Under the pieces are notes generated by a model. That model was not told the origin of the DNA, did not search any database, and saw only the letters and a program-made list of their open reading frames with translations. 59,335 nt of DNA from a virus. Shown one piece after another: positions 4,277 through 58,550 of this stretch. Both the position numbers and the translations under genes were made by a program. Within the stretch, counting starts at the first letter, position 1. Every line of letters starts with the position of its first letter. The DNA is taken from IMG/VR virus record IMGVR_UViG_3300029268_000019, positions 1 through 59,335 of that record, one strand, 5' to 3'.

Positions 4277-5092
4277 TTATGATTCTAAAATTTGATTGAA
4301 TTTTTTATATTTTCTATCAAATCCTATTTTATCATCATTGAAATTATTATAGATATAATTTCCAATCTTTACTATATCTCTTTTATTAGTTATTCTAAAT
4401 TGAGATGATTTACTTTTCTTTTTTTCGTTAATTGTGGTTTTTATTCCGTATTTACTTATCTGTAAAAATTTACATAAATTTATTAAATAAGACCAATCTT
4501 GTTCATATGTTGAAGAAATAGAAAATTGATAATTTCCATTTTTTTTATTTATATAAAAACAACCATCACCATCAGATATACCTCTAAAAAAATAAAATTT
4601 TAAATTTTCCGGTATAATATTTAAAATTTTAAATGGTGATGAATTTGATTTGTAATGAAAATCATAACTTTTGAAAATATCATGTAATTTTTTAAAACCA
4701 ATATGATATATAACAGATTTTTTACATTTTTTCCCTTTTCGTGTTCTTTGTCTGATATATTTTTTCCAATTACCCGTTTCGTAAATAATTTTTTCTATTG
4801 AAATCATATCATCCATATTACCTTCTAATCTTATATAATAACTTGTTTCTGAATCTTTCGACATACAACCATCTGCCCATAATAATCCCATAATATATGA
4901 CATTTTGTTTGTATCGATATTTTTAAAAAGTTCAATATTTACTTTATCGTTCAAATTTAATTTCAAAATTCTTACTTTATTTTGAATTTGTATTCTATTT
5001 AAATTCAGTTTATCCATACAATATATCATACCCATTGTTGGATAACTTTCTTTTAAAAATTTTTCTTCATCATCATTCCAAATATGTTTCAT
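4277..5092 (-). CDS. LAGLIDADG homing endonuclease, free-standing
   Basis: Two LAGLIDADG helices are visible, MGLLWADG at residues 68-75 and RGISDGDG at 170-177, each ending in the metal-binding acidic residue. The protein is therefore a two-motif monomer. Residues 1-48 (WNDDEEKFLKESYPT, then QIQNKVRILKL) form an added Myb/SANT-like helix-turn-helix that may widen target recognition. No intein or intron flanks were found, so it behaves as a free-standing mobile gene between two virion or metabolic units. A TTAATATATAA box precedes it. Confidence 0.85.
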   Translation of the reverse strand: MKHIWNDDEEKFLKESYPTMGMIYCMDKLNLNRIQIQNKVRILKLNLNDKVNIELFKNIDTNKMSYIMGLLWADGCMSKDSETSYYIRLEGNMDDMISIEKIIYETGNWKKYIRQRTRKGKKCKKSVIYHIGFKKLHDIFKSYDFHYKSNSSPFKILNIIPENLKFYFFRGISDGDGCFYINKKNGNYQFSISSTYEQDWSYLINLCKFLQISKYGIKTTINEKKKSKSSQFRITNKRDIVKIGNYIYNNFNDDKIGFDRKYKKFNQILES

Positions 5093-7471: not shown

Positions 7472-8401
7472 ATGAAACCACAAAGTCTTTCAATTTTAGT
7501 TCCCGGTGGATGTCCTAATGATTGTTCGTGTTGTGTATCGAAACTTCATGATAGTCCATACGAAAATCAGTTAGAAAAGAATTTCCAATTTGAAGATTTA
7601 TATCGTGACGATTATCGTGACGCTATGAGATACGCAAGGGATAATGATTGTAATGACCTTATTTTCACTGGTGAAAATGGTGAATGTTTGGTCAATAAAC
7701 ATTTTATGAGAACTGTGGTTGAAGTGAATAAATCATTACCCAGTCCTTTTGTCAAATGTGAATTGCAAACAAGTGGTTGTTTCTTAACCGAAAGGGCTGA
7801 AAATGGTGGTGAATCAAATCTTCGTTGGTTGAGGGATTTTGTTAGAATTAAAATCATTTCCCTAAGTCTTTTTGATCTTTTCGATTCGGAAAATAATGCT
7901 CTTTATTCGAAACCTAAAAGTCAGAAAGCTTTTGTGGATATTGAAGAAACTTGTAAAGCTATCAAGAAATACAATTTCACTTTAAGGTTGTCTATTAATA
8001 TGACAAACCTTTATGAGAAGAATGGTATTACACCAGAACAGATTTTCAAAGAAGCTAAAGAATTGGGTGCAAATCAAATAACTTTCAGGGTTCTTTATTT
8101 TGTCAACAATCCAAAAACCGAAAAGGAAAAAGAGATAAACAACTGGATTCTTGAAAACAGGTGTTCCGATGAATATATGAACAAAATCAAAGAGTATATT
8201 AAAGAAAACGGAAATCCTCTTGAAAAACTTTCGTTTGGTGCTATTCGTTATTCTGTAAATGGAACTTCTGTTGTTATCGATGATAATTGTATGGGAGAAA
8301 CAAATGTTTCTGATGTAAAAGAGGATATTAAATATTTAATACTTAGACCAGATTGTAAATTGTATACAAGATGGAATGATGAAGCCAGTTTATTGTTTTA
8401 A
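7472..8401 (+). CDS. Radical SAM enzyme
   Basis: The cluster motif CPNDCSCC gives C14-x3-C18-x2-C21, the [4Fe-4S] ligands of radical SAM proteins. It is followed by an alpha/beta barrel pattern (LIFTGENGECL, LQTSG, LRLSINMTNLYEKNG, ITFRVLYF). Length (309 aa) is that of a single-domain enzyme without extra cluster domains. The substrate is unknown. Two more radical SAM genes lie at 37258 and 38104. The 3' end overlaps a convergent homing endonuclease by 12 bases. Confidence 0.85.
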   Translation: MKPQSLSILVPGGCPNDCSCCVSKLHDSPYENQLEKNFQFEDLYRDDYRDAMRYARDNDCNDLIFTGENGECLVNKHFMRTVVEVNKSLPSPFVKCELQTSGCFLTERAENGGESNLRWLRDFVRIKIISLSLFDLFDSENNALYSKPKSQKAFVDIEETCKAIKKYNFTLRLSINMTNLYEKNGITPEQIFKEAKELGANQITFRVLYFVNNPKTEKEKEINNWILENRCSDEYMNKIKEYIKENGNPLEKLSFGAIRYSVNGTSVVIDDNCMGETNVSDVKEDIKYLILRPDCKLYTRWNDEASLLF

Positions 8402-9340
8402 CCATTCTGAAATTATTTCATCTATATTTTTCCTTTTTGTATAAGGTATTCTTAATAATTTAATATTGTTATCTTCACAATATTTATTTTTAATATTATC
8501 CTTTTTCTTTGTTTCTAATAATTTATCATCACCACCAAAGTATTTAACTGATTTAAAATGTTGAAAACCATCATATTCTATCAATCCAAATAATTCATTA
8601 TCCTTAAAAACAGCAAAATCAAAATGTAAAATATATTTATCTTTACAATCATTTTTATACTGATAAATATATTTTATTTTATTTTCATCTAAATATTTTT
8701 TAACTTTTTCTTCTCCTTTTGATTGTTTACAAAAAGGACATCCATTCCCATTTAATAACGAATTTGGAATTGATTTCCATGTAAGATCACATTTATTACA
8801 TTTTATTTCTATTGGTGTTTTTACATTAATATATGTTCCAATTATACTATATTGTGTATGTACCTTATTAAAATCTAATAAAAATTGATCATTCGATTTT
8901 CTTTGTCTTAAAGAACTTTCTTTATTATTGCATTTTGGGCATCCGGATTTTGAACTTATTAAATGTGTGGGTTTAACATCCCATTCATTTTCACAAATTT
9001 TACATTTTATTTTTGTTTTTGTTTTTGCATTAATATAATCACCTATTAATTCATATTTATTATCGTTAATATTCATTAATTCGTTTTTAAATTCTTCTTT
9101 TGTTTTTGTTCTTTTTATTATTCCACATTTAGGACACCCTCTTCCATATAATAAATGTTTACAACTAATTTTCCATATATTATTACAAACATTACATTTT
9201 ATTTTAATTTTTTGATTGTAATTTATATATTTTTCTAAAGTTGTATATTTATTACCGTGAACATTTTTTAATTTTAATTGAAATGTTTCATCTGTTAACA
9301 TAATTCTATATATTAAATAAAATAACTCATTTTTTCCCAA
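8390..9340 (-). CDS. Vsr-like (EDxHD-type) homing endonuclease with zinc repeats
   Basis: Three tandem zinc repeats of about 60 residues are seen, each with K/I-K-C-x2-C, then W, then GCPKC or GCPFC. The C-terminal nuclease domain (residues 205-316) has GEEKVKKYLDENKI, FDFAVFKDNELFGLIEYDGFQHF and LLRIPY. This is the Vsr-related fold of phage homing endonucleases such as I-Bth0305I, with D and E-Y-D-x3-H as candidate metal and catalytic residues. It is free-standing and convergent with the radical SAM gene. A CTATATATTAA box (minus strand TTAATATATAG) precedes it at 9306-9316. Confidence 0.8.
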   Translation of the reverse strand: MGKNELFYLIYRIMLTDETFQLKLKNVHGNKYTTLEKYINYNQKIKIKCNVCNNIWKISCKHLLYGRGCPKCGIIKRTKTKEEFKNELMNINDNKYELIGDYINAKTKTKIKCKICENEWDVKPTHLISSKSGCPKCNNKESSLRQRKSNDQFLLDFNKVHTQYSIIGTYINVKTPIEIKCNKCDLTWKSIPNSLLNGNGCPFCKQSKGEEKVKKYLDENKIKYIYQYKNDCKDKYILHFDFAVFKDNELFGLIEYDGFQHFKSVKYFGGDDKLLETKKKDNIKNKYCEDNNIKLLRIPYTKRKNIDEIISEWLKQ

Positions 9341-11865: not shown

Positions 11866-12059
11866 AAAAATTCAAAAAATGGTGGTTTAATTTAACACAT
11901 GTTAAATGTAATTACTGTAATGAACATATTGAACAATATTATGACGCTTGTCTTTTCCCAATAGAGAATTGGAAAGGAAATATAATTTGTAAAGATTGTA
12001 TAAAGAAAGAATCCAAATTGTCAAAAAACGAAACCATCATTATATATGAGAAAAATTAA
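11862..12059 (+). CDS. Small zinc-finger protein, 65 aa
   Basis: CNYCNEHI and CKDC pairs form a single zinc finger after a basic, tryptophan-containing start (KKFKKWWFN). It overlaps both coaE and prs by a few bases, so the three genes are translationally coupled. The function is unknown. Confidence 0.6.
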   Translation: MKKFKKWWFNLTHVKCNYCNEHIEQYYDACLFPIENWKGNIICKDCIKKESKLSKNETIIIYEKN

Positions 12060-12987
12060 AGTATTTTCCGGATCAGCTTCAAAAGATCTCACAGAAAAAG
12101 TTTGTTTCAATTTAGGAACAACTATGGGAAAAGTTAAATTAGAAAAATTTTCAGATGGTGAATTTCAACCAGTTTTTGAAGAAAATTTAAGAGGTAGAGA
12201 TGTTTATATTATTCAATCTTGTTATCCTCCATTTGATAACTATTGGGAACTCTTTCAGATGATACAGGCGGCAAAATTAGCTTCCGCCAGTAAAATTATT
12301 GTAATCCTACCCTATTATGGTTACGCTAGACAAGACAGAAAGGATAGACCTAGGGTTGGTATAGCTTCAAAACTTATTGCCAAATTTTTAGAATCAGCGG
12401 GTGCAACAAGAGTTGTTACTATTGATTTACACGCAGACCAAATACAGGGATTCTTTGATATTCCTTTTGATCAACTTTTCGGTACTTATGTTTTTTGGCC
12501 ACACATTGAAAAAATGGTGAAAAGTGGTGAAATTGAAAATCTTCAATTCGCATCACCCGATAATGGTGGTGTGAAAAGAATGTCAAGATACGCTGAAAAG
12601 TTTGATGTTGATTATGTTATTTGTTCAAAAACTCGTAAGAAGAAAAATGAAGTAGCTAAAATGATTCTTATCGGTGATGTAACAGGTAAAGATGTTATCA
12701 TTATTGATGATATGGCAGATACCGCTGGAACAATGTGTAAAGCCGCTGATTTAATGATTGATAAAGGGGCTAAAACGGTTCGTGGTTTAGTTACTCATCC
12801 AATTTTATCAGGAAAAGCTTTCGAAAACCTTGAAAATTCAAAAATAACCGAAATTTTTGTTCTTGATACTATTCCATTAAATAACGAACATCCCAAAGTT
12901 AAGGTTTTATCTTGTTCAGATATGTTAGCAAAAGCTATCAAGAAGATAGACACGAATAAATCTTTAAGTCAATTATTCCTAAAATAA
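12046..12987 (+). CDS. prs: Ribose-phosphate pyrophosphokinase (PRPP synthetase)
   Basis: The 313-residue protein is full length for the family. It contains FSDGEFQP, the ATP-binding PYYGYARQDRK loop, the metal-binding DLHADQIQGFF motif and the PRPP loop IIIDDMADTAGTM, all with canonical residues. It should make PRPP from ribose 5-phosphate and ATP for nucleotide and NAD synthesis. Some phage Prs homologues act instead in NAD restoration by making ADP-ribose pyrophosphate, and sequence alone does not exclude this. It is coupled to a zinc protein and to coaE. Confidence 0.9.
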   Translation: MRKIKVFSGSASKDLTEKVCFNLGTTMGKVKLEKFSDGEFQPVFEENLRGRDVYIIQSCYPPFDNYWELFQMIQAAKLASASKIIVILPYYGYARQDRKDRPRVGIASKLIAKFLESAGATRVVTIDLHADQIQGFFDIPFDQLFGTYVFWPHIEKMVKSGEIENLQFASPDNGGVKRMSRYAEKFDVDYVICSKTRKKKNEVAKMILIGDVTGKDVIIIDDMADTAGTMCKAADLMIDKGAKTVRGLVTHPILSGKAFENLENSKITEIFVLDTIPLNNEHPKVKVLSCSDMLAKAIKKIDTNKSLSQLFLK

Positions 12988-25168: not shown

Positions 25169-25438
25169 TTAAATTGTGTAATTCTTACGTGTTTCTTTTA
25201 TTTGTTTTTTAGTTAGATCAGAAACTATTTCAAAATAATTTGAAAATTCATTAAAATTCATAAAAGTTTTATAACTATAATTCCTTTCATCCATAACAAA
25301 TATCCAAGAATGATATTCATCCGGTTTTACAAAATATTCAACTCTATAAAAATTATTTAATTTCCAATCTCTATTGTTTGAACTAAATTTATCATCAATA
25401 CATTTACAATAAAATTCTTTTTTCTTTCCTGTTATCAT
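25169..25438 (-). CDS. Hypothetical protein, 89 aa
   Basis: A beta-rich small protein (FYRVEYFVKPDEYHSWIFVMDER) with two cysteines near the start (CKCIDDKF). It overlaps the next gene upstream by four bases. No family is recognised. Confidence 0.5.
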   Translation of the reverse strand: MITGKKKEFYCKCIDDKFSSNNRDWKLNNFYRVEYFVKPDEYHSWIFVMDERNYSYKTFMNFNEFSNYFEIVSDLTKKQIKETRKNYTI

Positions 25439-26433
25439 AATAAATATTTTTTAACTGTATCTGGATCTAATTTCATTAAATTTCTAATAGCTGAACTACT
25501 GATGTGCTCATATTGTTTATCACAAAATATGTTTATTATTTTAATATCTGGTTTCATATCCTGTAAATATTGAAATTGTGTCATTTCATATTGTAAATCT
25601 GTTGAATTACGGAGTCCTCTAATAAGAGTGGTGTCGTAACCCAATTTTTCCATGAACGTTGTAAGGAACCCATCAAAATGTTCAATTTGATGATATTTTA
25701 ATATTCTTGGTAATTCGTATTCGTTTTTGGATTTTTCGGGATTTGTTCCTCTAGCAATAATAACTTTGTCGAATATTTTTTCGGCTTTTTCAAGAATATT
25801 ATAGTGACCTTTGTGAAAAGGTCCAAAAGTTCCGGCATAAACACCGATATTTGGTGTCCAATTCAAAATGTATTCAATAACATATTTTACATTTTTATTT
25901 ATATCAATGTATTGATTAAGAAATTCTATTATCTTAACTTTCCATTTTAAAACATCTGTGAATTGTTGTTCTTTAAATAACAATTTTGTATTTCTTAATA
26001 TTTCGGTAAAACTACCATAATACAAATTATATCTGTCATATTCCTTAATAAATTTTCCAGAAAGGGGTGATTGTGGTCCATTTTGGGTATCCATAATACA
26101 ACAACAAACATCTTCAAAACAATTTCTAACCATTTTATTCATGTAATAACCAACGGAATTACTTTCATTGGTGTTAAAATATGGTCTTTCTGGATTATAA
26201 ATTAAATTAGGTTCGTAAATTATATCATGGAATATAATAGTAAGAAATAATTTATCATCATCCCATTCATCATTTTGTATTAATCTTTCGATAAGTTCGT
26301 TTAAATGATTCATTCCATGATAAAAACGATGGGGTTCACTCCATCTTTTGAAAATATCATCAACATCATCATTCGAATTAATTCCTAAACTTATAAGTCT
26401 ATTTCTGATTTTATTCTTTACTTCGTCTGTCAT
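25435..26433 (-). CDS. HD-domain/CoaD-like fusion (phosphopantetheine adenylyltransferase)
   Basis: Residues 195-332 carry CoaD hallmarks: GVYAGTFGPFHKGHYNIL (the T/H-x-GH nucleotidyltransferase motif, H207-K-G-H210), RGLRNSTDLQYE and the C-terminal ISSSAIRNL. Residues 30-130 form an HD-type phosphohydrolase domain (RFYHGMNHL, then FHDIIY with H69-D70). The two activities in one chain are unusual. CoaD would make dephospho-CoA for the CoaE at 11263. The nucleotidyltransferase could instead use a related nucleotide such as NMN. Confidence 0.75.
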   Translation of the reverse strand: MTDEVKNKIRNRLISLGINSNDDVDDIFKRWSEPHRFYHGMNHLNELIERLIQNDEWDDDKLFLTIIFHDIIYEPNLIYNPERPYFNTNESNSVGYYMNKMVRNCFEDVCCCIMDTQNGPQSPLSGKFIKEYDRYNLYYGSFTEILRNTKLLFKEQQFTDVLKWKVKIIEFLNQYIDINKNVKYVIEYILNWTPNIGVYAGTFGPFHKGHYNILEKAEKIFDKVIIARGTNPEKSKNEYELPRILKYHQIEHFDGFLTTFMEKLGYDTTLIRGLRNSTDLQYEMTQFQYLQDMKPDIKIINIFCDKQYEHISSSAIRNLMKLDPDTVKKYLL

Positions 26434-50701: not shown

Positions 50702-51757
50702 ATGAAATTCGTTATAGATGATACTGTTACAAAGATAATACTAAAAGAGTCAACAAGAGAAGAATTCAATCAATTGAAATTATATTTAAACAGACACTTA
50801 AAAAATTATGTGTTTATGGCTAAATATAAATTGACTAAATTCTCAGCTAATCCTTGGGACGGTAAGTATGAACAATTTCATGGTGGTTATATAGATTTCG
50901 GTTTATTACATGAATGTTACAAATGTTGTAAAGAATATGGTTATCCATTCGAAGTTTTAAATAAAGAAAAAATTCCTATTAATAGAGATATTAAAAAGGA
51001 AGATATTGAAAATTTCTGTAAAGAATTTTACAAAGATCACAAAGATGAACATGATATAACCAAATCATTTGTCCCATATGAACATCAAGAAGAATCCATT
51101 TTCAGAATATTGAAACATCAGTACGGTAGAATTGAAGTCGCTACCGCTGGTGGAAAATCTTTAATATTTGGATCCCTAATATTTTATTATTTAACTCATA
51201 TCAATCCTGATGCAAAATTCTTATTGATTGTACCAACTATGGATTTAGTTACACAATTCTATAATGATATCAATAATTATAATTATGGTTATCATAATGA
51301 AAATAAAAATGTTATAAATATCAGAATGGATGAAATTATGAGTGATAAACCAAGAAAATATCATGGTGACGAACCAAATATTTATATTGGAACATATCAG
51401 AGTTTAGTTAAATGGCCAGTTGAATGGTTTCATCAATTTGATGTCGTTTGTTGTGACGAATGTTTACATCCTGATACATTAATAACAATGTCAGATGGTA
51501 AGAAAAAAAAGATTAAAGATATTAAAATTGGTGATAAAATTTTCACTATTAATGAAAAAACATTAAAAAAAGAAATTAGAGAAGTTGATTATGTATATAA
51601 AAATTTAAGCAAAAATCAACAAATGTTTGAACTAGAAATGGAAGATGGAAAAAAATTAAAAATAACAGGAAACCATGAAGTAATTTTATCAAATGGAAAA
51701 AGAAAAAGAATTGATAAATTATCAACAAATGATGAAATTTTCGATTTTAATATTTAA
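50702..51757 (+). CDS. UvsW-like helicase, N-terminal part fused to the N-half of a split intein
   Basis: Residues 1-253 are the N-extein of a T4 UvsW-like superfamily 2 helicase: Walker A in EVATAGGKSLI (147-155) and motif Ia in LLIVPTMDLVTQFY, ending at VVCCDE. At residue 254 an intein starts with Cys1 (CLHPDTLITMSDGK), followed by GDKIFTINEK and the block B motif TGNHEVIL (T322-H325). The frame stops at 351. UvsW unwinds branched DNA and acts in recombination and in late replication. The rest of the gene is at 52808. Confidence 0.85.
   Translation: MKFVIDDTVTKIILKESTREEFNQLKLYLNRHLKNYVFMAKYKLTKFSANPWDGKYEQFHGGYIDFGLLHECYKCCKEYGYPFEVLNKEKIPINRDIKKEDIENFCKEFYKDHKDEHDITKSFVPYEHQEESIFRILKHQYGRIEVATAGGKSLIFGSLIFYYLTHINPDAKFLLIVPTMDLVTQFYNDINNYNYGYHNENKNVINIRMDEIMSDKPRKYHGDEPNIYIGTYQSLVKWPVEWFHQFDVVCCDECLHPDTLITMSDGKKKKIKDIKIGDKIFTINEKTLKKEIREVDYVYKNLSKNQQMFELEMEDGKKLKITGNHEVILSNGKRKRIDKLSTNDEIFDFNI
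51461..51757 (+). other. N-half of a split intein
   Basis: Ninety-nine codons, including the stop, from the catalytic Cys1 through blocks A and B. There is no endonuclease in this half. Confidence 0.85.
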
Positions 51758-51801
51758 TATATAAGGACAGAATGTCATAAAGTAAAAAGAAATTATAATG
51801 A

Positions 51802-52827
51802 ATGTTAACCAAATCTTGTCCTTATTGTAAAAGTATATATTTGAGATATAAATATAAAAATTCTAAAAATAGTTTCGTTTGTTTAAATTGTTTAAAATCA
51901 TTCAAAAACAAAGAAATAATATATTTAGATATTAAAGAAAATGAATTGTTTACTATTTTAAATGAATCATCAAAAGAAGTAGATAAAAAAAGAATTTTCG
52001 ATTTTCTTAAAGCAAATAATTCAAAATTTTTATGTCAAAAAAATTTAGATAAAAGTATTACTGATTTTCTTAATAATTGTTATATCAAAATTGAAATTAA
52101 AAAATCTTTAACATATAAAAATATTTTTGATTTTTTAAATAATACTAAATATAATGATTGTCATTGTCATAATCTTGAATGTAATAGAGATACAAAATTT
52201 TATGGATTTTCAAAAAGACATCCAAGAGGATATTCAATTTGTTGTGATGATAAAAAATGTTTATATCTTTTAAGATCCACAAAACAAAAAGGTGAAAATA
52301 ATACTTGTCACAAAATGACAAAAGAATCTTTAGAATCAATGAAAATAAAGAATTCTATTATAATGAAAGAAAAAATAAAAAATAAAGAATTTATACCAAA
52401 TGCAATTAATTCTTGGAGAAATGAAAAATATAGTTTAATTTTAAATGGTAAAAAAATAAATTTTAGATCATCTTGGGAGGCTTTTTATAATTTAGTTAAT
52501 AAAGATTTAATTTATGAAAATACTGTCATACCTTATGAATATAAAAAAGTCAAACACAATTATATTGTTGACTTTTCAGATCATATTAATAAAATTTTAT
52601 ATGAAATAAAACCAAAATCGGATATAAATAGGCAAAGAACAAAAAATAAAACAAAATCAGCTAAAAAATGGTGTAAAGAAAATAATTACAAATTTATAAT
52701 CATAAACGAAGATTGGTTTTATGAAAATTATAAAAAACATAAACATTTATTAGAAAATATTGATATGATAAATAAAGAAAGATTACAAAAAAATTTAAGA
52801 AGATTCGATGAAAATAAAATCTATTAA
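51802..52827 (+). CDS. Homing endonuclease between split-intein halves
   Basis: A zinc-finger start (CPYCKSIYLRYKYKN, then CLNC) and a middle with a CCDDKKC zinc motif lead to a C-terminal nuclease domain: FRSSWEAFYNLV, EYKKVKHNYIVDFSDH, then KILYEIKPK and FIIINEDWF. The D/E-x-K-like core is Vsr-related. Free-standing endonucleases of this kind sit between split-intein halves in other fractured phage genes. It overlaps the C-terminal half gene by 20 bases. Confidence 0.7.
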   Translation: MLTKSCPYCKSIYLRYKYKNSKNSFVCLNCLKSFKNKEIIYLDIKENELFTILNESSKEVDKKRIFDFLKANNSKFLCQKNLDKSITDFLNNCYIKIEIKKSLTYKNIFDFLNNTKYNDCHCHNLECNRDTKFYGFSKRHPRGYSICCDDKKCLYLLRSTKQKGENNTCHKMTKESLESMKIKNSIIMKEKIKNKEFIPNAINSWRNEKYSLILNGKKINFRSSWEAFYNLVNKDLIYENTVIPYEYKKVKHNYIVDFSDHINKILYEIKPKSDINRQRTKNKTKSAKKWCKENNYKFIIINEDWFYENYKKHKHLLENIDMINKERLQKNLRRFDENKIY

Positions 52828-52933
52828 TAAAATTGAATATAATGGTGATGTTTACAATTTAAGAATTAAAGAAATAAATTCTGATGATATAAATAACCAT
52901 AATTATTTTGCAAATGATTTTTCTGTGTCTAAT
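52808..52933 (+). other. C-half of a split intein
   Basis: Forty-two residues ending V-S-N, with the +1 nucleophile Cys at 52934. The penultimate residue is Ser and not the usual His. Confidence 0.85.
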
Positions 52934-53752
52934 TGTCATAAAGCGAAAGGAAACTCACTAAGAACTATATTGAAAAATACGTTTGGTCATGCCAAAATTC
53001 GTTTTGGTATGAGTGGTACATATCCAAATGATGATACCGCTGAATTACTAATGATAGAAGCTGTTACAGGTCCATTATTATTAAACATCAGAGCTAAAAA
53101 ATTAATGGAATTAGGTATCATCACACCTTGTAAAATTAAGGGAATTATACTAAATCATGGTGATTATAACTTCGCATCGAATATATTTTCAATAAAGAGA
53201 AGTGGTAATGGGAGAAAAGCTTGGGAATTAGAAAAGAAATTCGCACAGAATTCATTACCCAGAAAAATATTTATTGGAAAATTGGTGAATAAATTTAAAA
53301 ACAATTCATTAGTATTATTCCAAAATATTGATTACGGAAAGGATTTATATAATTACATCAGAGATAATATACCAAATAAAGATGTTTATTACATTGATGG
53401 AAATACACCGAAAGAAAAAAGAGGAATTATTAAAAAACAAATGGAAGATACATCTGGAAATGTGAAAATATTAGTTGCTTCCTTCGGAACATCAGCGACT
53501 GGTATAAATATTAAAGCTGTTGTTAATTTAGTTTTTGCTGATTCATTTAAATCAGATTCATTGGTAACACAAGCAATTGGTAGAATATTAAGATTACATA
53601 GTGAAAAAGAATTATCTATTATTTTCGATTTGGTTGATCAATTCCATCAAGATTTTAAGGGAACACTGTATAATCACTTCCAAATTAGGAAAAAAGAAAT
53701 TTATACCAAAAGGGAATATCCTTATGAAGAATTGAAATTTAGTTTAGTATAA
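52808..53752 (+). CDS. UvsW-like helicase, C-terminal part preceded by the C-half of a split intein
   Basis: The first 42 residues are the intein C-half (EYNGDVYNLRIKE and HNYFANDFSVSN, blocks F and G), with splicing before Cys43. The C-extein begins CHKAKG, which completes the DECH box of the N-extein. Later come motif III (FGMSGTYP) and motifs V/VI (TSATGINIKAVVNLVF and QAIGRILRLHSEKE). Protein splicing in trans would rebuild one helicase of about 525 residues. Confidence 0.85.
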   Translation: MKIKSINKIEYNGDVYNLRIKEINSDDINNHNYFANDFSVSNCHKAKGNSLRTILKNTFGHAKIRFGMSGTYPNDDTAELLMIEAVTGPLLLNIRAKKLMELGIITPCKIKGIILNHGDYNFASNIFSIKRSGNGRKAWELEKKFAQNSLPRKIFIGKLVNKFKNNSLVLFQNIDYGKDLYNYIRDNIPNKDVYYIDGNTPKEKRGIIKKQMEDTSGNVKILVASFGTSATGINIKAVVNLVFADSFKSDSLVTQAIGRILRLHSEKELSIIFDLVDQFHQDFKGTLYNHFQIRKKEIYTKREYPYEELKFSLV

Positions 53753-53815: not shown

Positions 53816-55090
53816 ATGATTATAGATGAATTTGTAAATGTTAAAATCGGAACTAAAAATATCAATCATTTTAAAAAATTAAATTATATTTGTAAAGTTG
53901 GCGAAATTATATTAGTCAAACCAATAGATTTAATGAATTGTAGTAAAAATCCAGTTCATGTTAAATGTGATATTTGTGGTAAAGAAAAAATTATACCATA
54001 TCGTTCATATTTTAAAAATATTAGTAAATTTCCAATATATTGTTGTGGAACTTTATGTTCAAAAATAAAAGAGAACCAAACCAAAAAAGAAAAATATGGT
54101 GATAATTATGAAAAACACAGAGTTAATAAAATGAAAAAAACCAATAAAAAAAGATATGGTAATGAAAACACATCACAAATATTTAGAAATGAAAAAAATA
54201 TAAATGATTTTTTACTTGAATTGAAAAATATTTATACAGATGATAATTTGGATTTTTCAAAAATTAATTACATTAATAATTACACAAAAATTGAAATTAT
54301 TTGTAAAAAACATGGTTTGTTTAAAATTAGACCAAATGAATTATTAAATGGTCAGGGGTGTAAAAAATGTAACAAAGAAATAAGAAAAAATAATAATTTA
54401 GAAAAATATAAAGATAAGGCTAATCAAATTCACAATAATAAATATGATTATTCCAAAGTTATTTTTAATAAAATTCTAAATAATGTAGTTATTGTTTGTC
54501 CAGAACACGGTGATTTCATTCAATCTTTACATAATCATATAAATTCTAAACAAGGTTGTCCAAAATGTTCTCACAATTACAATAAAAAGGATTGGATAAA
54601 ATTATATTCTGATAAACACAATAATAAATATGATTATTCATTAATGGAATATATTAATAGTAATACAAAAATAAAAATAATTTGTCCTGAACACGGTATT
54701 TTTAAACAACTACCATCCACACATCTTAGTGGAATTGGATGTCCTTATTGTGCTAATAAAAAAAGAAGATTATTTAGAATTGAAAAAATCAGTAAGAATA
54801 AATTTAATGGTGAACAAATAATGCCATCTTTTAATGAAAAAGCTTGTAATTTATTTGATGAAATATCCAAAAATAAAAATATTCATATTCAACATGCTAA
54901 AAACGGTGGTGAATTTTATATTAAAGAATTAGGATATTGGGTTGATGGATATGACAAAGAAAACAATGTTGTTTACGAATATGATGAAAAACATCATTTT
55001 AGAAATGGAAAATTAAACAAAAAAGATCAGATACGTCAAAAAGAAATATCCAATCTTCTAAAGTGTAATTTCATAAGAATTAAAATTTAG
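53816..55090 (+). CDS. Homing endonuclease with zinc repeats, 424 aa
   Basis: The N-terminal domain (VKCDICGKEK, then CCGTLC) is shared with the protein at 1701. It is followed by KKYG-D-N/R-x-G-N recognition repeats and then by three zinc repeats (IICKKHG-GCKKC, VCPEHG-GCPKC, ICPEHG-GCPYC) like those at 8390. The end (GYWVDGYDKENNVVYEYDEKHHF) looks like a Vsr-like EDxHD nuclease. The chimeric domain order is notable. It is the second homing endonuclease next to the split helicase gene. Confidence 0.7.
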   Translation: MIIDEFVNVKIGTKNINHFKKLNYICKVGEIILVKPIDLMNCSKNPVHVKCDICGKEKIIPYRSYFKNISKFPIYCCGTLCSKIKENQTKKEKYGDNYEKHRVNKMKKTNKKRYGNENTSQIFRNEKNINDFLLELKNIYTDDNLDFSKINYINNYTKIEIICKKHGLFKIRPNELLNGQGCKKCNKEIRKNNNLEKYKDKANQIHNNKYDYSKVIFNKILNNVVIVCPEHGDFIQSLHNHINSKQGCPKCSHNYNKKDWIKLYSDKHNNKYDYSLMEYINSNTKIKIICPEHGIFKQLPSTHLSGIGCPYCANKKRRLFRIEKISKNKFNGEQIMPSFNEKACNLFDEISKNKNIHIQHAKNGGEFYIKELGYWVDGYDKENNVVYEYDEKHHFRNGKLNKKDQIRQKEISNLLKCNFIRIKI

Positions 55091-58238: not shown

Positions 58239-58550
58239 ATGCAAGGAATCGTTTATTTAATAGAATCAGTAAGAGATTATGATGTTGTTTATAAAATAGG
58301 ATATACCCGTATATCGTCTAAAAAGAGGTCTAAACAACTTCAAACTGGAAACGATGGTGAATTAAAAGTTATTTATCAACATATAACATATCATGGACAA
58401 ATGTGTGAAAGAGCTATACAAAATTTTTATTCACATCTTAGGATAAAGAACGAATGGTTTAAATTAGATTTAGAAGATATTGTCAAATTTCCAGAAATTT
58501 GTAATAAAATTGAAAATAATCTAAATATAATAAAGAAAGAAATTATTTAA
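58239..58550 (+). CDS. T5orf172/MUG113-type GIY-YIG nuclease-like protein
   Basis: The pattern GIVYLIES, then YKIGYTRISSKKRSKQLQTGN, HITYHGQMCERAIQNFYSHL and NEWFKL matches the T5orf172 branch of the GIY-YIG fold. The Y-L-x2-S and K-I-G-Y-T motifs are equivalent to GIY and YIG, and the conserved catalytic Glu is in CERAIQ. Such proteins are usually mobile endonucleases or part of phage defence. A late-type TAAATATATAA box lies at 58209-58219. Confidence 0.7.
   Translation: MQGIVYLIESVRDYDVVYKIGYTRISSKKRSKQLQTGNDGELKVIYQHITYHGQMCERAIQNFYSHLRIKNEWFKLDLEDIVKFPEICNKIENNLNIIKKEII

Follow-up and report, generated by a model that had tools for sequence, protein, structure and literature searches.

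How could a phage obtain a working helicase from a gene that is cut in two in the middle of its catalytic motif? The question is raised by a locus in the IMG/VR virus record IMGVR_UViG_3300029268_000019, which we analyzed at its full length of 59,335 nucleotides (nt) and refer to as the window. At positions 50702-53752 of the window, a repair-helicase gene similar to uvsW of phage T4 is interrupted by the two parts of an intein, with a nuclease gene between them (Table 1). An earlier note, made from the DNA letters alone, had proposed that a split intein lies here on two genes and interrupts the DECH box of the helicase. All of the features that it listed are present where it placed them, and its central proposal is borne out by the homology of the flanking halves, the exactness of the junction, the conservation of the splice residues, and the existence of relatives with and without the insert. 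We are confident that the locus is a uvsW gene that was invaded by a mobile cassette for Walker-B motifs, consisting of the N-terminal intein part (IntN), the nuclease, and the C-terminal intein part (IntC), and that the host protein would be restored by trans-splicing. Nor does the locus stand alone, for its cassette is one of a large family whose members occupy this same Walker-B position in a number of unrelated ATPases.

Table 1. Features of the interrupted uvsW-like locus in the window (a slash marks a splice junction; aa, amino acids; ORF, open reading frame)
Feature	Coordinates	Strand	Description
N-half ORF	50702-51757		351 aa; junction VVCCDE/CLHPDTLITMSDG; later TGNHEVIL; ends FDFNI
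N-extein, UvsW-like helicase	50702-51460	+	253 aa; motifs I to II; ends VVCCDE; phmmer and Pfam ResIII/DEAD
IntN	51461-51757	+	98 aa and stop; Cys1; block A CLHPDTLITM; block B TGNH
Cys1 codon (predicted splice residue)	51461-51463		
Homing-type endonuclease gene	51802-52827	+	341 aa; Cys-rich N-terminus and TnsA-like PD-(D/E)XK domain (E226, D257, E268-x-K270)
C-half ORF	52808-53752		314 aa; starts MKIKSINKIEY; junction NHNYFANDFSVSN/CHKAKG
IntC	52808-52933	+	42 aa; blocks F and G; ends SVSN; aligned with 46 uvsW/XPD IntC
Terminal Asn codon (predicted splice residue)	52931-52933		
C-extein, UvsW-like helicase	52934-53752	+	272 aa and stop; begins at +1 with CHKAKG; motifs III to VI; phmmer and Pfam Helicase_C
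+1 Cys codon (predicted splice residue)	52934-52936		

The helicase halves abut in motif II

Both exteins are homologous to T4 UvsW (PDB ID codes 1RIF and 2OCA), far above chance. In phmmer searches, T4 UvsW matched the N-extein through residue 234 (E 6e-20), with residues 34-234 of 2OCA covered, and residues 232-458 of 2OCA matched the C-extein (E 2e-27). The two matches join at E233/C234, in the DECH motif, with zero gap or overlap and without the gain or loss of a residue. Splicing would thus rebuild motif II as DECHKAKG, just as the earlier note had claimed, and the joined exteins come to 253 + 272 = 525 aa, the approximate length that it had predicted. Once joined, they comprise both RecA domains and motifs I-VI of a superfamily 2 helicase of the UvsW type, with the DECH of motif II restored. 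The note had also suggested that uninterrupted homologues might confirm the junction; such homologues were found (L007, L012, and L005, discussed below), and the alignment with T4 UvsW fixes the exact position.

Inteins commonly sit in active-site motifs. Because the break in the window divides RecA domain 1, with motifs I and II on one side and motif III on the other, we can soundly infer that the helicase would be inactive before trans-splicing.

A split intein with intact splice residues

The residues between the exteins make up a complete split intein of 98 + 42 aa. IntN matches the Pfam families Hint (3.5e-9) and Intein_splicing (4.7e-8), aligns with the solved Ssp DnaB intein 1MI8, and contains both the Cys1 and the block B TGNHEVIL that had been pointed out previously. 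The sequence that had been called block G, HNYFANDFSVSN, is also present, but it covers blocks F and G rather than G alone. The window intein and all of its uvsW and XPD relatives have the hallmarks of a class 1 split intein, namely Cys1, a block B TxxH, a terminal Asn, a +1 Cys, and location on separate ORFs. TxNH is found in 46/46 uvsW and XPD-like inteins, the terminal Asn is invariant among the 46 aligned uvsW/XPD IntC, and Cys1, the terminal Asn, and the +1 Cys are intact in 67/67 complete inteins, collected by a junction search that itself required DE and both Cys. The penultimate residue of block G in the window is Ser instead of His, and Ser is the norm in this family (40 of 42 uvsW members). 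A penultimate His is common in block G, yet not universal, and is not counted as defining a class 1 split intein; Ser in its place can slow Asn cyclization. Judged by these residues, the intein would be expected to trans-splice its host protein.

The halves might instead assemble non-covalently, leaving the intein remnants as inert tails. PMC2988022 reports a precedent, a phage NrdA gene that a homing endonuclease gene likewise divides, though without an intein, and whose product functions in pieces; moreover, splicing at the window is a prediction from sequence. Inert tails would not, however, be expected to keep their splice residues in every complete intein, or to evolve with fewer nonsynonymous than synonymous substitutions (dN < dS), as both IntN and IntC do. 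Furthermore, the break separates motif II from motif III within RecA domain 1, where such tails would occupy the active site. We therefore regard assembly without splicing as improbable, and favor restoration of the helicase by trans-splicing.

The nuclease between the intein parts

The gene that had been noticed between the halves and described as a homing endonuclease encodes a TnsA-like PD-(D/E)XK protein. Pfam TnsA-like_N matches eight of nine family members, and the invariant residues include D257, E268, and K270 with P271 (in two Tevenvirinae-type nucleases, Arg replaces K270). A sequence profile of the nuclease gave only chance-level matches in the PDB, and we therefore turned to a fold search. 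The best PDB match of the AlphaFold model (mean predicted local distance difference test, pLDDT, 84) was TnsA (probability 1.00, E 0.02), followed by the homing endonuclease I-Bth0305I (probability 0.75), both with weak E-values; there was no sequence match to I-Bth0305I. Because the model matches these two proteins, which both have a PD-(D/E)XK-type fold, the nuclease is taken to be an enzyme of that fold. Its ExK active site is like that of TnsA-like or T7 endonuclease I-like enzymes, whereas that of I-Bth0305I is EDxHD, and it is distinct from that of the EDxHD/Vsr family.

In the window, the nuclease ORF overlaps the start of the C-half by 20 nt, and 34 of the 35 family members have an overlap between the C-half ATG and the nuclease stop. 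Translation of the C-half is probably coupled to that of the nuclease, which, if true, would penalize a phage that deletes the nuclease.

Homing endonucleases are frequently found in phage introns, and this is the sole point in favor of joining at the RNA level, with the insert being a group I or II intron and its nuclease. Nothing in the window sequence itself suggests an intron, no Rfam intron model matched, either in the window or, at a relaxed threshold, in the region, and a complete intein, in frame with both exteins, is encoded by the ends of the insert. We consequently give RNA-level joining almost no credence, and, as Rfam returned no matches, rejected both a group I/II intron and any other structured RNA within the insert. 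A 10-bp inverted repeat (ATAAGGACA...TGTCCTTAT; window 51761-51820) encloses the start codon of the nuclease and folds no better than shuffled sequence (z -0.84), and no hairpin was found at the start of IntC.

The same break in other phages

The DE/C site of uvsW is likewise broken in isolates from the public phage collection, Salmonella phages S16 and CF-SP2 and Proteus phage PM2, and a two-part uvsW match like that of S16 was obtained for STP4-a, SEA1, and NP4. The site is also broken in the Prevotella megaphages Lak-B2, B4, B7, and B8 (B2 being read under genetic code 15). The fractured uvsW genes of S16/STP4-a/CF-SP2 and PM2 share with the window the gene, the DE/C site, the nuclease family, and the gene order, but their exteins are only ~30% identical to those of the window. 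PHROGs stores the uvsW halves as two helicase families (16259 and 9690). The annotated records that we examined label the halves as DNA helicase and list the nuclease as a hypothetical protein, with no mention of an intein, and the literature passages that mention both uvsW and inteins report no uvsW intein. The split-intein reading accounts for loci that are annotated as duplicated helicases or pseudogenes.

These relatives bear upon two further explanations. The window comes from IMG/VR as a fragment that has neither annotation nor reads, and the earlier note had recognized that halves brought together by an assembly error would undo its proposal. A metagenome chimera is excluded to near certainty by the recurrence of the same layout in the isolates S16, CF-SP2, and PM2 and in dozens of independent contigs from different samples. 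It is also very improbable that the insertion destroyed the helicase and that its halves are now decaying. Although the authors of the Campylobacter phage CPt10 genome annotated a comparable phoH locus as a disrupted pseudogene, the frames of all parts are open in many independent phages, the exteins and the cassette are under purifying selection (with dN < dS in nearly all comparisons of cassette parts), and the catalytic residues are invariant.

A cassette family at Walker-B motifs

To survey the family, IMG/VR was scanned with the nuclease alignment alone, which yielded 169 relatives, of which 80 were examined. A script that sought 'DE' and then Cys, and was blind to other sites, found an upstream ORF ending in IntN right after 'DE' at 72 of the 80 nuclease loci, and both gene halves at 63. 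The eight loci that it missed were inspected separately and six of them could be assigned by eye, so that 78/80 nucleases lie inside a gene broken just after 'DE'. The only exceptions among the 80, L077 and L078, are terL genes broken at other sites; here, a single terL appears to hold several inteins, namely a LAGLIDADG intein close to Walker A as well as split inteins at two more sites.

The fractured host genes encode UvsW, TerL, a Rad3/XPD-type helicase, a clamp loader, PhoH (in Campylobacter phages CPt10 and CP21), and a MoxR-type AAA+ ATPase; Pfam confirms the XPD-type (Helicase_C_2), gp44 clamp loader, and AAA_5 hosts. After removal of near-copies (nucleases of <90% similarity were kept, and the window, S16, PM2, and Lak-B2 were included), there were 39 complete loci: 25 in uvsW or uvsW-like genes, nine in terL, four in Rad3/XPD-type genes, and one in a clamp loader gene. 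Since third codon positions at the junction vary freely, the sequence that the sites have in common is a motif and no fixed DNA word.

The nuclease tree places the window, with support (96/91), in a group made up of four uvsW and four XPD-type loci. Among the inteins, all four of the XPD type nest within a supported group (99/97) of eleven from uvsW, those of the window and Lak-B2 included. A single clade of uvsW inteins is disfavored by the approximately unbiased (AU) test (p = 0.039), a value that carries supporting weight only, given the long branches in the set. The terL loci have the nuclease family in common with the others, and because their intein is broken at another point (IntN of 31-37 aa), they may represent a separate association. 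Taken together, we lean towards one lineage of TnsA-like nuclease and split intein that is specialized for the Walker-B 'DE/C' and has jumped between non-orthologous P-loop ATPase genes, from uvsW to the XPD-type helicase at least once and probably also to terL, the clamp loader, phoH, and the MoxR-type ATPase. The niche of such a lineage would be the motif and not the gene.

Several loci deserve individual mention. At L017 (993-3968), the phoH gene of CPt10 that is annotated as a disrupted pseudogene contains the two intein halves as well as the nuclease, making it a fractured gene. In the terL of Shewanella phage Thanatos-2 (L016, 467-2212), one ORF fuses N-extein, IntN, and nuclease, and the C-half is separate. 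At L035, the XPD-type N-half starts with an intein C-part just before Walker A (SNHN/SGKSYLA), and the gene looks broken at two motifs.

Empty alleles and movement of the cassette

The nearest uninterrupted relatives of the window gene, L007 and L012, have DEAHKAKG and DESHRAKG at this site (identity of the N-exteins, 86-88%); among empty relatives further away, L005, L009, and L013 have DEGH or DEAH. As its empty relatives do not have the +1 Cys, that of the window probably arrived with the cassette. Nucleotide identity of the window with L007/L012 is 73% near the junction versus 81-87%, a dip that is too weak for us to claim a co-conversion tract.

The megaphages Lak-B2 and Lak-B1 are near-isogenic (99.9% over 6 kb upstream and 99% over 6.8 kb downstream). 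Compared with Lak-B1, Lak-B2 carries 1654 nt extra exactly between the Glu and Cys codons, and the flanks of the insert are strongly divergent for ~21 nt before and ~88 nt after it. Lak-B3 and B9 share the empty allele of Lak-B1, and B2, B3, and B9 all came from baboons in Kenya. Because double-strand-break repair from a donor predicts a precise insert with short divergent flanks, this pattern is the signature expected of homing. An occupied/empty pair with precise insertion and flank co-conversion is thus found in this relative, and not in the window.

Other pairs show that whole cassettes were transferred recently between diverged genes. The exteins of L081 and L095 are saturated (proportion of synonymous differences, pS, 0.82-0.86), whereas the values for IntN and the nuclease are 0.018 and 0.055; for L091 and L102, pS is 0.67 in the exteins versus 0-0.05 in the cassette. 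Since near-identical cassettes sit in diverged exteins, the three cassette parts travel together from one such uvsW gene to another. Between the window and Lak-B2, identity is 58% for IntN and 67% for IntC versus 28% and 38% for the exteins. The composition of the cassette is foreign to the window, with 18.7% GC against 27% in the exteins, a value undercut by only 0.2% of window stretches of equal length. GC at third codon positions (GC3) changes at the splice junctions, from 18.6 to 9.2% in the N ORF and from 9.5 to 18.8% in the C ORF.

Proposed mechanism

In the mechanism that we propose, the cassette would have entered motif II precisely between its Glu and the residue that follows (DE/CH). 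The helicase halves would be produced as separate proteins, with translation of the C-half coupled to that of the nuclease via the overlap of start and stop codons. IntN and IntC would then associate and trans-splice via Cys1, the terminal Asn, and the +1 Cys to give an uninterrupted 525-aa helicase with DECH. The TnsA-like nuclease is predicted to cut cassette-free alleles at the Walker-B-coding DNA, and repair from a cassette-bearing copy would bring in the cassette along with short flanks that contain the +1 Cys codon.

Several points weigh against this account. Trans-splicing and cleavage are, for every member of the family, predicted from sequence. The penultimate His of block G is replaced by Ser, albeit a replacement that is normal in these uvsW inteins. 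The fold matches of the nuclease have weak E-values (0.02 at best), although the probability for TnsA is 1.00. A near-isogenic, cassette-free sister of the window was not found, and the nuclease of the window sits on a long branch, leaving its cassette donor without a candidate.

Relation to described fractured genes

In 2009, Dassa et al. reportedly described, from metagenomes, fractured genes (gp41, NrdA, NrdJ, and IMPDH) that combine split inteins with a free-standing homing endonuclease. To our knowledge, those insertions are in host genes other than the ones considered here and lie outside Walker B. The earlier note had seen a resemblance to such genes, and this holds for the layout: in both, the gene from a phage-like source is split inside the intein into separate ORFs, with a free-standing, homing-type nuclease gene between the halves. 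It does not hold for the nuclease, which in the described fractured genes is of the EDxHD/Vsr family (as stated, citing Dassa, in PMC12350094), whereas the window enzyme matches TnsA-like_N, with an E-D-ExK active site that includes the invariant D257, E268, and K270. The fractured terL (gp17) genes of T4-like phages (Yersinia TG1, SEA1, and PspYZU05) are like the window in the DE/C site and nuclease family, but unlike it in having an IntN of 31-37 aa and an IntC of 106-114 aa; they resemble atypical split inteins such as AceL-TerL.

Earlier papers describe inteins in ATPase motifs, including Walker B, for mycobacteriophage TerL (PMC5050341), a phoH intein in Campylobacter phage IBB_35 (PMC3322345), and, in the PolB of phage MIJ3, a split intein accompanied by an HNH nuclease (PMC6892783). 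Because Walker-B inteins, a phoH intein, and a split intein with a nuclease were already known, the window cassette is a variant of the fractured-gene kind and not a separate kind. What is new is the repeated occurrence of another nuclease family at one motif in unrelated ATPases. Such cassettes occur in cultured Salmonella and Proteus phages as well as in plus/minus megaphage pairs, making directly testable both the homing of a three-gene split-intein cassette as a unit and the movement of inteins between non-homologous genes. The family also offers a new set of candidates for natural split inteins, with Glu in the -1 and Cys in the +1 position.

Other genes in the window

Directly behind the uvsW C-half, positions 53816-55090 (+) encode a protein with CapR/DUF4379/DUF723 domains, as do positions 8390-9340 (-). 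The former ends VVYEYDEKHHF and the latter has FGLIEYDGFQHF; these EDxHD/Vsr-like motifs recall the CapR-EDxHD nuclease group described in PMC12350094. More nuclease-like genes are located at 4277-5092 (-; LAGLIDADG_3), 58239-58550 (+; T5orf172/MUG113, GIY-YIG type), and 1701-2603 (+; DUF7487), and the 59-kb stretch therefore holds several putative homing endonucleases. Finally, a ribose-phosphate pyrophosphokinase (12046-12987) and a cytidylyltransferase-like protein, possibly of the NadR type (25435-26433), suggest NAD salvage in the window phage.
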